IMG/VR virus record: IMGVR_UViG_3300030380_004057
Location: 3,849 to 67,848 of that record
Strand: one strand, 5' to 3'
Length of the DNA stretch: 64,000 bases
Source of the DNA: a virus
Shown here: in pieces, positions 9,630 to 13,726 of the stretch
Layout: every line of letters starts with the position of its first letter
How positions within the stretch are numbered: position 1 is the stretch's first letter
The notes under the pieces: model-generated
Seen by the model: the letters and a program-made list of their open reading frames with translations, nothing else
What the model was told of the DNA's origin: nothing
Database searches by the model: none
Translations under genes and position numbers: made by a program

Positions 9630-9661
9630 ATATTATCTAATATGTTTCGTATTTAATTTGT
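9630..9661 (-). promoter_or_regulatory. Repeated promoter-like motif, copy 1
   Basis: Read on the minus strand: ACAAnnTAAATACGA, nine variable bases, then GATAATAT. It lies between the gene starting at 9627 and the stop of the gene ending at 9653, overlapping the latter. Seven copies with identical 32-base geometry occur between 9.6 and 13.7 kb, each just upstream of a gene. Confidence 0.8.
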
Positions 9662-10162
9662 AAATAAAGATACTAGTTTCTTAGCATGGTATAAACCATC
9701 TAATTTATCTGATTGGCTAATCATAGTTTGACCGTTAGCAAAATCAGTGTACTTCATGTCTTTCATATATTTAGATATAATTTTTTCAGGTTTTAATACA
9801 AATACACATTCACTATTATACATATTCCAACAACTTACGTGTATTTTATCTTTATCACCACTCCATATTACATATCTATACTCGTGATCTATATTTTCTG
9901 GGTTACTATATAGATAACAACTACTATAATACATATCATGTACTAATTTAGATGCTAATCTAGCACCGTCTTGGCACCCATTATTCTTAGCTAACAACCA
10001 ATTAGCAATTTGTACTCCTTGCCATTCAGGATAACCATCATGGTGCATGTACATGTTTACATAGCTTTTGTCACGCACAAGGTCAGGGTGTATAGCAAAA
10101 CCTTCAGGGTATTTACTACTGTGTTTACGGTCTACGACCATTATTAAATTTCTAGTGCTCAT
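9653..10162 (-). CDS. Conserved-looking hypothetical protein, 169 aa
   Basis: 169 residues starting MSTRNLIMVVDRK, with MYMHHDGYPEWQGVQIANWLL near 38-58, a pattern I associate with unnamed phage proteins opening MSTR and carrying an HxDGYP motif. Rich in Tyr, Cys and His in the centre. No catalytic family can be named. It overlaps the upstream acidic gene by 11 bases and belongs to the early small-gene block. Confidence 0.72.
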   Translation of the reverse strand: MSTRNLIMVVDRKHSSKYPEGFAIHPDLVRDKSYVNMYMHHDGYPEWQGVQIANWLLAKNNGCQDGARLASKLVHDMYYSSCYLYSNPENIDHEYRYVIWSGDKDKIHVSCWNMYNSECVFVLKPEKIISKYMKDMKYTDFANGQTMISQSDKLDGLYHAKKLVSLFTN

Positions 10163-10583
10163 ATCCTTTATCTTTTAATTCATTTATTATTTCTGTTTGC
10201 TTTGTTTCATAAAGCTCTTCATATAATTCTTCAACAGCGTATGTAAGTGCGCTTTCACTCATAGCGTATTCTTCTATGTAAATAGTTAAGCCATCATAAA
10301 CAGCGTCAGGTAGTTTTTCAAACCAGTCTGATTCGTAATAATATACGTCTTGACCAATATAAGGATTAGATTCGTTTTCTGAAGCTATATAAACTTCATA
10401 ACCATCAGCTGTTGATTCAGGGTAAAAATACATTTGAGCACCTTTATTCCATTCATTTACAATATCAAAATCATATTCAGCTTGTAGTTTTACTAGCATT
10501 TCATCGTGGTCCATATCACTTACGTGTAACAAACCTTGTTCTTTTAGCTTATCATCTATAAGCTCATCAGTTATTTTTTTCAT
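10152..10583 (-). CDS. Acidic hypothetical protein, 143 aa
   Basis: 143 residues, strongly acidic (many Asp/Glu/Tyr, for example IYIEEYAMSESALTYAVEEL). Such charge is common in early phage proteins that inhibit host nucleic-acid-binding enzymes, but no family is recognised and this is inference. It overlaps the next gene and lies one base from the upstream one. Confidence 0.7.
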   Translation of the reverse strand: MKKITDELIDDKLKEQGLLHVSDMDHDEMLVKLQAEYDFDIVNEWNKGAQMYFYPESTADGYEVYIASENESNPYIGQDVYYYESDWFEKLPDAVYDGLTIYIEEYAMSESALTYAVEELYEELYETKQTEIINELKDKGYEH

Positions 10584-10584
10584 T

Positions 10585-10950
10585 TTATTTATTTAAGTAA
10601 TTTTTCTTTGCATATTCGTGTAAGAAGTTTAATCTAGCTAAACCTGACCAGATCTTAGCTCTTGACCACGTTGTAAATTTTTGAGTAACTAACTCAGTAC
10701 CGTTAAGAAATACCCATCTTTTTTCACGTTTGTATTTAGGATTTAACTGCCATATTCTATCACTGCTATCACATCTACGTACATAACCTGATTTATATGT
10801 TGCTAAGAGTTGTCCTGTTGGTAATTTAAATTGACGCGTACCGTTTGCCCATTGTTTTTTCGTGGTAGTTTCTACGATACCGTCTTCGTGAAGCATAGCT
10901 TGAGCGTATGCGTTTTCTAGTTGTAATTGTTTTTGTCTCCATTTAGTCAT
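10585..10950 (-). CDS. Basic hypothetical protein, 121 aa
   Basis: 121 residues, basic and Trp/Tyr-rich, with beta-like strands (TRQFKLPTGQLLATYKSGYV, KRWVFLNGTEL) and a charged C-terminal helix. No motif identified. It overlaps the upstream gene by eight bases and is followed directly by the acidic 143-residue gene. Confidence 0.68.
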   Translation of the reverse strand: MTKWRQKQLQLENAYAQAMLHEDGIVETTTKKQWANGTRQFKLPTGQLLATYKSGYVRRCDSSDRIWQLNPKYKREKRWVFLNGTELVTQKFTTWSRAKIWSGLARLNFLHEYAKKNYLNK

Positions 10951-11182
10951 TTGATTCTGATTTTAAAAATTCATTTCCATACATAATATCTGCACCGTTA
11001 ACATCATAGCTAGCTTTATTAGTATACATTAGTATATCTCTAATAGTAGTTAGTTTTAAATCATACCAACCTGATGAAGCCATAAGTGTGTACTTAAGTC
11101 TTTTAGCTGTAGTATACTTGTGAGCCGCTTGTCTAATCTTTATTTGATAATGGGGCTTTAGTTGTTGCCATGTATTTTTCAT
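10943..11182 (-). CDS. Hypothetical protein, 79 aa
   Basis: 79 residues, starting MKNTWQQLKPHYQIKIRQAAH, basic N-terminal half and acidic end. First gene of a leftward set: promoter-like motif copy 2 ends 13 bases before its ATG and the RNA cluster lies upstream of that. No family recognised. Confidence 0.68.
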   Translation of the reverse strand: MKNTWQQLKPHYQIKIRQAAHKYTTAKRLKYTLMASSGWYDLKLTTIRDILMYTNKASYDVNGADIMYGNEFLKSESND

Positions 11183-11195
11183 ATTTGATTTTATT

Positions 11196-11227
11196 ATATT
11201 ATCTATTAGTAATCGTATTTAATTTGT
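11196..11227 (-). promoter_or_regulatory. Repeated promoter-like motif, copy 2
   Basis: Same 32-base geometry (ACAAnnTAAATACGA, nine bases, GATAATAT on the minus strand). It sits between the initiator tRNA gene and the ATG at 11182, so it would drive the four genes from 11182 down to 9653 and does not cover the RNA genes. Confidence 0.85.
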
Positions 11228-11232
11228 ATTAG

Positions 11233-11305
11233 TTGCGGGAGGTGGAGTCGAACCACCGACCTCGAGGTTATGAGCCTCGCGAGCTACCACCTGCTCTATC
11301 CCGCT
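11233..11305 (-). tRNA. Initiator-type tRNA-fMet (CAU)
   Basis: A 73-base cloverleaf with all arms: acceptor, D arm, anticodon stem CGAGG/CCTCG with loop CTCATAA, variable AGGTC, and T arm GGTGG-TTCGACT-CCACC. Initiator features are an unpaired first base (A1 against A72), the A11:U24 pair in the D stem, and an anticodon stem ending in two G-C pairs next to the loop (the third is A-U instead of the G-C usual in initiators). CCA is not encoded. It would deliver formyl-Met to start codons. An elongator Met or tRNA-Ile2 is less likely because of the 1:72 mismatch. Confidence 0.88.
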
Positions 11306-11313
11306 AATATTAT

Positions 11314-11392
11314 ACCCGGCTGTCACTACGACTGGCTTTGTACAACTGATACCTCAAGGAAGCCAAGGCGTCGGTTTACTGTTAAGCCGGGT
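11314..11392 (-). ncRNA. 79-base folded RNA element of tRNA size, identity unknown
   Basis: Ends form a perfect eight-base stem (ACCCGGCT with AGCCGGGT). Inside, CGAC+TGGCTT at 11329-11338 pairs with AAGCCA at 11360-11365 and GTCG at 11370-11373, leaving a four-base bulge. The remaining loop can form small CCT/AGG and GTA/TAC pairs. It lies between a tRNA and a tRNA-like minihelix and has tRNA length and a tRNA-like closing stem, but no T loop (no TTCGA) on either strand. It may be a degenerate tRNA, a processed small RNA or a regulatory fold. Strand is assumed from its neighbours. Confidence 0.5.
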
Positions 11393-12915: not shown

Positions 12916-13109
12916 ATTTTGTTTTTATTTGCATGCCACTTAGCAATGTTTTGTCGCCATTGCCACTCGCGCTTGCGATAGTTAATGTCTGTACACCACT
13001 TAATCCAGCCACGACTTGTATCGTTTGAACCATACTTTGCTTCAAAGTCTTGTGCTTGTTTAAGCTTTGCATTTATTTTATCTTGTGGATAATCTATAAA
13101 CTCTACCAT
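12912..13109 (-). CDS. Small basic hypothetical protein, 65 aa
   Basis: 65 residues, starting MVEFIDYPQDKINAKLKQAQ, Trp/Arg/Lys-rich in the second half (GWIKWCTDINYRKREWQWRQ). Overlaps the membrane-type gene upstream by seven bases. No family recognised. Confidence 0.62.
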   Translation of the reverse strand: MVEFIDYPQDKINAKLKQAQDFEAKYGSNDTSRGWIKWCTDINYRKREWQWRQNIAKWHANKNKI

Positions 13110-13249
13110 CCGCCGAAAGTTATTGTTGGATTATTAAAAGCTAAGTGATATACTAGTTGAATAAAGCCGAAGATGAATAATGCTGTTAGTGATGTTAGTA
13201 ATGCTCTTGTGATTACTAGAATTATTAGGTGATGAAATTTTCTGTTCAT
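13103..13249 (-). CDS. Very small membrane protein, 48 aa
   Basis: 48 residues from ATG 13249: short basic start (MNRKFHH), then about 30 hydrophobic residues (LIILVITRALLTSL, ALFIFGFIQLVYHLAF) and a polar end. One long or two short membrane segments. Promoter-like copy 5 ends 16 bases before the ATG. It could be an early inner-membrane factor (exclusion or host takeover). No family recognised. Confidence 0.6.
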   Translation of the reverse strand: MNRKFHHLIILVITRALLTSLTALFIFGFIQLVYHLAFNNPTITFGGW

Positions 13250-13265
13250 AGTTTATTATTTTATT

Positions 13266-13297
13266 ATATTATCAATTTGTTATCGTGTTTAAGTTGT
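13266..13297 (-). promoter_or_regulatory. Repeated promoter-like motif, copy 5
   Basis: Same spacing, most divergent copy in the upstream half (ACAACTTAAACACGA). Lies wholly in the gap between the genes ending at 13303 and starting at 13249. Confidence 0.8.
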
Positions 13298-13302
13298 GTT
13301 GT

Positions 13303-13533
13303 TTACTTTGCTTCAACAACACCTCTTGCAGCTACAGGTACATTATTTGAAGCTGTGTATGATTTATACTTTAACCAACATGGTAATTTAGTTAGTGTGT
13401 CTTTCATAACTTCAAACACTTTGTCGTGATTGTAAGTTGCACTTTTACCATTTTTAAAAGTAACATTGATAGTTTGGTTTTTACCTATTAGTGATTGTCT
13501 TAGAACAAATCTTTTTGAATTTAATGTAGTCAT
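13303..13533 (-). CDS. Small hypothetical protein, 76 aa
   Basis: 76 residues, starting MTTLNSKRFVLRQSLIGKNQ, beta-rich first half (NVTFKNGKSATYNHDKVF) then a helix with Cys and Trp. Promoter-like copy 6 lies 30 bases upstream, the longest leader of the set. No family recognised. Confidence 0.65.
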   Translation of the reverse strand: MTTLNSKRFVLRQSLIGKNQTINVTFKNGKSATYNHDKVFEVMKDTLTKLPCWLKYKSYTASNNVPVAARGVVEAK

Positions 13534-13562
13534 AGTATTGATTTTAATTATTAGTATTTATT

Positions 13563-13594
13563 ATATTATCTTTATAGTTTCGTATTTAAGTTGT
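13563..13594 (-). promoter_or_regulatory. Repeated promoter-like motif, copy 6
   Basis: Same 32-base geometry, located 30 bases before the ATG at 13533 and overlapping the end of the 33-residue frame at 13586. Confidence 0.85.
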
Positions 13595-13687
13595 AAAGTA
13601 TATTGTTTGTTTAGTAATATATTTTATGTTGTATGTAGTGCGCGAAGTGTCAAACTTTGTAATTATATTTGTAATTTCGTAACTCAT
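13586..13687 (-). CDS. Possible tiny protein, 33 aa
   Basis: 33 residues from ATG 13687 (MSYEITNIITKFDTSRTTYN). Its only support is that promoter-like copy 7 ends seven bases before the ATG and that its stop overlaps copy 6, as other tiny genes here do. It would be the first gene of the leftward arm. Confidence 0.4.
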   Translation of the reverse strand: MSYEITNIITKFDTSRTTYNIKYITKQTIYFTT

Positions 13688-13694
13688 AACATTA

Positions 13695-13726
13695 ATATTA
13701 TCATAATAGTATCGTATTTATGTTGT
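13695..13726 (-). promoter_or_regulatory. Repeated promoter-like motif, copy 7
   Basis: Outermost copy, same geometry, seven bases before the ATG at 13687. It marks the head of the leftward transcription unit beside the divergent intergenic region. Confidence 0.82.

Follow-up and report, generated by a model that had tools for sequence, protein, structure and literature searches.

A conserved promoter-like motif and its candidate reader in uncultured Flavobacteriia podoviruses

Seven motif copies in the leftward gene module

The sequence analyzed here is a window of 64,000 nucleotides, comprising positions 3,849 to 67,848 of the IMG/VR virus record IMGVR_UViG_3300030380_004057, and the element in question is a 32-base promoter-like motif, ACAAnnTAAATACGA-N9-GATAATAT, that occurs seven times on the minus strand between positions 9630 and 13726. 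The leftward genes comprise small unknown open reading frames (ORFs), followed by genes for a ligase, a helix-turn-helix protein here called the partner, a sigma-70-family factor, Erf, an exonuclease, a primase-helicase, thymidylate synthase and others; the rightward genes encode fibres, GroEL, packaging proteins and particle proteins. Going by its portal, terminase and capsid proteins and a muzzle protein of the crAss type, the phage is nearest to the Flavobacterium elemo phages, Maribacter phage Panino and MW202828, with portal identities of 42–52%, and by sequence comparison these look like sister lineages of the uncultured clade described below.

When the pattern was searched with up to three mismatches, seven minus-strand matches were found in the window and none in 100 dinucleotide shuffles. 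These copies lie where an earlier note, made from the letters of the window, had placed them, and none was expected by chance. The note had described all seven as reading the same; five are indeed exact, but those at 12778 (TTTAATACGA) and 13266 (TAAACACGA) carry one mismatch each. On a position matrix built from related phages, the seven copies scored 30.7–42.2 bits, while the eighth-best site in the window reached only 10.2 bits, in agreement with the expectation that there would be few matches elsewhere and no scatter. Across the whole record of 76,964 bases, the only good matches were the same seven; of two further rows with three mismatches, one echoed the copy at 13695 in another register and the other was a weak chance match.

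Every copy precedes a leftward ORF, as the note had also said, including one ORF of 48 residues (13103–13249) and one of 33 residues (13586–13687). The first copy of the leftward module, an exact one at 13695–13726, stands before the 33-residue ORF, with a predicted start, derived from the comparison with relatives given below, at 13690 and a leader of 3 nt. It is followed by an exact copy at 13563–13594 (ORF 13303–13533, predicted start 13558, leader 25 nt), by the two copies with one mismatch, at 13266–13297 (the 48-residue ORF, predicted start 13261, leader 12 nt) and at 12778–12809 (ORF 12564–12764, predicted start 12773, leader 9 nt), and by exact copies at 12274–12305 (ORF 12077–12265, predicted start 12269, leader 4 nt) and 11196–11227 (ORF 10943–11182, predicted start 11191, leader 9 nt). 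The last copy, again exact, occupies 9630–9661, with GATAATAT as a candidate −10 element at 9630–9637, the upstream box at 9647–9661 and a predicted start near 9625. Downstream of it runs a series of genes consisting of an ORF at 9325–9627, the ligase (8477–9328), partner, sigma, Erf, exonuclease and primase. The predicted leaders in the window are 3–25 nt long except at this last copy, where the ATG lies only 2 nt past the motif and 2 nt before the predicted start, so that the start must be shifted or a later start codon used. This ATG, together with the comparative data, which point to the fifth base after GATAATAT, also contradicts the suggestion that transcription starts 6–8 bases past GATAATAT.

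Conservation, geometry and distribution in related phages

The exact pattern was found in at least 118 stretches of viral contigs. From the viral-contig stretches listed and from 80 loci containing the sigma gene, we aligned 556 distinct copies, and among these the consensus was tTACAAAcTAAATACGA-N9-GATAATATaaaYR, with GAT invariant and the remainder of GATAATA conserved at 99% or more; since the copies were picked with at most two mismatches, part of the conservation inside the pattern follows from the choice itself. Two features were independent of the search pattern. Both bases preceding the motif are T, and the fifth base after GATAATAT is a purine in 98.9% of copies, preceded by T, A or C. 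This purine sits 12 nt after the G of GATAATAT, and if it is taken as +1, GATAATAT spans −12 to −5; the parts distinguished in the early motif are G−12, a AAATACGA part and an ACAA part. The first ATG that opens a frame of at least 35 codons falls exactly on the purine in 83 copies, compared with 2 on each side, and these ATG-on-purine copies lead into 71 different N-terminal peptides. Taken together, the purine and the ATG peak likely mark the transcription start site. Because the peak on the predicted +1 is so sharp, part of the genes in the clade are predicted to be leaderless, although leaderless mRNAs are uncommon in Flavobacterium, where they make up 5.5% of the mapped mRNAs of F. psychrophilum (PMC9723704). 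Judged from sequence, these copies form one promoter family, shared by a large clade of uncultured Flavobacteriia podoviruses.

A reading of the motif on the opposite strand was also considered. The reverse complement holds TAnnTTGT, which resembles the SM5 class of F. psychrophilum (TAnnTTGY). This reading was ruled out, since the TA is lost in lineages such as ACAAACAAAA, in which GATAATAT and the purine are kept, and since all copies face leftward genes.

In the 80 sigma-gene loci, 249 of 255 copies share the strand of the sigma gene and stand upstream of it. The other six are on the opposite strand, where they are divergent, back to back with a leftward copy, and intergenic before rightward genes. 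Around capsid genes, no copy was found on either strand in 882 kb. Some relatives have copies directly before the primase, thymidylate synthase or sigma gene itself, which shows that the restriction to small genes seen in the window is not general. The earlier claim that no copy stands before replication or particle genes is true for the window in the narrow sense, but the copy at 9630 heads the replication run, and the relatives depart from the claim outright. From their order, the genes behind the motif would be early ones.

Relatives with few strict matches carry lineage-specific boxes (ACAAACAAAAYACAA, ACAAACAAAATAnnA, ACGGACTTAATA, CGAAnnnTAATACGA and ACAGAAnTAATACGT); all copies in one genome share the same box variant, and GATAATAT is constant. 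Box identity was 0.795 within genomes and 0.684 between genomes, with a permutation maximum of 0.700. The N9 spacer showed a similar excess (0.449 versus 0.349), which indicates that base composition or common descent of the copies contributes to the likeness of the boxes, although the spacers are still far more divergent than the boxes. Such concerted drift is what one would expect if a reader encoded by the phage acted in trans and co-evolved with the boxes.

The sigma factor, host-type promoters and late-class sites

The sigma-70-family factor (251 residues; 6894–7649, minus strand) is conserved in the clade and is the proposed reader of the motif. Its region 2 matched PF04542 at 28 bits (cut-off 24) and TIGR02937 at 51.5 bits (cut-off 42.9), and it aligned with solved sigma chains. 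The match of the region 4 helix-turn-helix to PF04545, at 16.1 bits, was under the cut-off of 24.1, and a second stretch that aligned with sigma chains was weak. A PHROG sigma family match covers residues 31–239, and a structure model of middling confidence also matched sigma chains. Region 2.4 reads SKRIKGAIRR, compared with TWWIRQAITR in sigma-70, and this alteration leads us to expect a non-standard −10 element. FliA reads a −10 element containing GATAA, and the likeness of the phage factor to FliA is only suggestive.

The partner (205 residues; 7636–8253, minus strand) has its helix-turn-helix at the C-terminus, and its gene overlaps the start of the sigma gene by 14 nt. No significant match to its fold was found in the PDB. 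The protein is a possible, non-essential co-factor of the sigma factor; a role as an essential co-reader was ruled out by its absence from the near-complete relative L140 (68.9 kb) and from the L176 record.

The sigma gene and the motif co-occur. Among 50 records found by the motif alone, 35 carry the sigma gene, including all 21 records of at least 58 kb. The other 15 also lack the partner and primase genes and have their motif cluster near a contig end, which is consistent with truncation. In the capsid-sampled records, sigma was present in three, all three with the motif. Both sigma and motif are missing from the complete relatives MW202828 and Panino and from the crAss phage phi14:2. One 48-kb fragment has a single motif site and no sigma gene, and some relatives' records hold two sigma genes.

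The flavobacterial primary sigma recognizes TAnnTTTG (PMC6847099). The earlier note had remarked that this box is lacking, and it is absent both from the motif and from the window genes with free upstream DNA. When genes with free upstream DNA were counted, TAnnTTTG occurred within 70 nt of 6 of 308 genes in sigma-plus phages versus 47 of 192 genes in seven sigma-minus phages (Fisher p = 1.4e-15, a nominal value only, with genes treated as independent). The coding background is 2–6%, which places the sigma-plus phages at background.

The motif is nearly absent from hosts as well. In a scan of 84,980 genomes, 12 stretches contained it, at least five of them phage-derived by their protein matches, and 299 Flavobacteriaceae genomes yielded no site with at most one mismatch beyond two genomes already found in that scan. 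This near-absence argues that the motif is not a host promoter class, and the start-site map of F. psychrophilum lists no GATAATAT class (PMC9723704). There are approximately three independent host sites in 257 Gb, for which the chance expectation, estimated by hand, is ≈0.5–3, and host genomes carrying a copy showed no excess over a control pattern. A few host chromosomes (L295, L297–L300 and L312) carry full-length copies. In two Flavobacteriaceae metagenome-assembled genomes (MAGs), these stand before orthologous genes for small secreted proteins. In one Bacteroidetes MAG, full-length copies precede two genes, and a TerB-like gene is preceded by a copy in another lineage. Such copies could mark host genes switched on by the phage sigma; their number is near chance.

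A second, late class of sites is associated with the particle genes. In capsid loci, TTTAATTATATTATATYATG was found at 121 sites on the sense strand and at none on the antisense strand, and it did not occur in 1.27 Mb of early loci. It ends in the start codon of particle genes, and no element was seen upstream of it. At two particle-gene loci, the clade has TTTAATTATATTATATYATG where MW202828 or Panino has the host element. Two sites in the window belong to this class, both on the plus strand: TATTATATCATG at 40066–40077, which contains the start codon of the gene at 40075–41298, and TATTATATTATG at 43200–43211, which contains that of the gene at 43209–44006. These sites are possible leaderless late promoters.

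Some other elements were seen in the window. A GC-rich GGGGGCCCC-type element lies at 13770–13790 in the divergent region, and likewise in several relatives (L152, L162 and L196); where a rightward motif copy exists, the element is found ≈60 nt beyond it, and it might be a terminator or an origin element. Further on, in the stretch that precedes the first rightward gene (14000), at 13900–13999, a TTAAATT...GTGTAATTATTA-like pattern is common to relatives and might be another, third kind of promoter. At 11440–11500 on the minus strand, a stretch like the 3′ half of a tRNA (GGTTCGACTCCTGCCACCAC) adjoins a tRNA-Met gene; ARAGORN did not call it. A virion-type protein of 2704 residues, encoded at 53018–61132, has no family match, and HEIGH (zincin-like) and HAD-like segments were recognized in it by eye. 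Its position is like that of the giant structural protein of the elemo phages, and it is probably an ejected multi-domain protein. The ends of the 76,964-base record repeat the same genes at ≈84% identity (window 1–6848; L011 2625–9465), so the record is probably one genome of ≈66–67 kb read past its start, with two co-occurring strains mixed.

Candidate readers of the motif

We favour the reading, which we consider probable, that the motif is an early or middle promoter of a phage-specified programme, read by the phage sigma on the host core RNA polymerase. The co-occurrence of the sigma gene with the motif makes this the more probable source of specificity. The phage factor would bind the host core enzyme, with region 2 reading GATAATAT as the −10 element (−12 to −5) and region 4, perhaps together with a phage co-factor, reading the 17-bp upstream box (≈−38 to −22). 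Initiation on the purine at the fifth base after GATAATAT would then produce mRNAs with very short or no leaders.

Several points weigh against this reading. The sigma gene lies downstream of its own supposed promoters, so that the first sigma would need another source, and a search of the DNA before the early genes in the window showed no starter promoter of host type. The 17-bp upstream box is longer than the usual −35 element, and residue–base covariation singled out neither sigma region 4 nor the partner helix-turn-helix as the box reader. Motif and sigma could also be associated because both were inherited within one clade. Moreover, the late class (TATTATATYATG) also co-occurs with sigma, and the factor could belong to that class, either in addition or exclusively. 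Virion delivery or weak host initiation are possible sources of the first sigma. A more far-reaching version, which we put forward tentatively and hold to be the lesser chance, is that the lineage has swapped every host-type promoter for promoters of its own sigma, early and perhaps late, and that the first sigma enters with the DNA from the particle. A full-text literature search returned no paper on a virion-carried sigma, which is weak evidence.

Among the other candidate readers, the one that survives best is the host polymerase with its primary sigma, redirected to the early motif by a box-binding phage activator of the MotA kind, the phage sigma then serving the late class only. In its favour are the length of the box, its centre near −30 and its activator-like drift, as well as the existence of a late class that accompanies the sigma gene. 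In addition, the sigma factors of known phages often serve later genes, and the sigma gene here sits in the replication block. In phage T4, the middle (MotA) class has a box centred near −30 and a −10 element, and the late (gp55) class has the −10 element only. The two classes described here resemble these, but the sequences differ, and homologues of MotA, AsiA and gp55 are not shown here. An activator would ease the start-up problem only if it came with the virion. We nevertheless regard this explanation as unlikely, because GATAATAT, the invariant part of the motif, is unlike the TAnnTTTG that the host primary sigma reads, because a putative region 4 besides region 2 suits a two-element promoter, with the late class having no upstream element, and because the obvious candidate for the activator, the partner, is missing in L140 and L176.

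The earlier note had proposed a phage-specific or modified polymerase. Conservation across the clade, the geometry of −10 element and start, the strand and position of the copies, their absence from hosts and the drift of the box all speak for phage-specific recognition, but the polymerase itself was not found. No DxDGD site of the RNA polymerase type was present in the ORFs of the record longer than 150 residues, smaller ORFs having not all been scanned, and the large proteins tested had no polymerase match in Pfam, PHROGs or the PDB, T7-like types being covered there only through Pfam and PHROGs. An RNA polymerase that is delivered by the virion or made early, on the model of crAss-like or N4-like phages, would do away with the start-up problem, and the phage does encode a giant virion-type protein and shares a muzzle protein family with the crassviruses, in which a virion polymerase transcribes the early genes (PMC10136315). 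Like the crAss-like phages, of which phi14:2 is an example, it is a Bacteroidota phage of podovirus type and, as far as the sequence indicates, has phage-specific early transcription. It differs from them in having no polymerase signature, and phi14:2 in turn lacks sigma and motif. Host-type promoters are used by sigma-minus relatives that encode a giant structural protein at the corresponding position, and on balance we find a polymerase of this kind quite improbable.

It is very doubtful that the motif is an operator or an RNA-level element in the leaders of early messages: the copies are close to start codons and the box drifts in an operator-like manner, but back-to-back copies on opposite strands in divergent regions, a −10-like element, a strict purine at +1 and an ATG exactly at +1 are promoter features, and nothing is annotated upstream of the first copy that would transcribe through it. 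We attach just as little weight to a host promoter class, borrowed by the phage from a host alternative sigma factor, for which the few host chromosomes with full-length matches before genes could speak, since the Flavobacteriaceae genomes are essentially empty, the host sites are near chance expectation with no excess over the control pattern, the F. psychrophilum map has no such class, and a box that drifts by lineage ill fits a fixed host reader.

A phage sigma with its own promoters is an already known kind of system. Phages phiEco32 and 7-11 are likewise podoviruses that encode a sigma of their own, with promoters dedicated to it and with a phage promoter in front of the sigma gene (PMC4331800). 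In these phages, however, the early genes have host-type promoters, from which the first sigma is also made (for 7-11, an origin from upstream host promoters was proposed; PMC4331800), whereas none is visible in the window phage; their promoter core is TGATGT, and their hosts are enterobacteria. The closest complete or near-complete genomes, those of Elemovirus, Panino and MW202828, have a similar gene order, but no sigma, partner or motif, and carry TAnnTTTG before a third to a half of their free-standing genes. What sets the present phage apart is the apparently complete loss of host-type promoters.

These results define a predicted promoter code for a large group of uncultured marine phages of Flavobacteriia, a class whose phylum has atypical promoters; gene switching in the group seems to have been rewired to follow this code. 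Phages with host-type promoters and their sisters with a sigma and a private code offer a natural comparison, which includes orthologous late genes where TAnnTTTG has been replaced. The pair of sigma and promoter might serve as an orthogonal tool for expression in Bacteroidota, and the predicted leaderless mRNAs are relevant to how translation is initiated without Shine-Dalgarno sequences. How transcription starts up in a phage with no visible host-type promoter is a directly testable question, and a sigma delivered by the virion, if true, would reprogram the host RNA polymerase from the first transcript.

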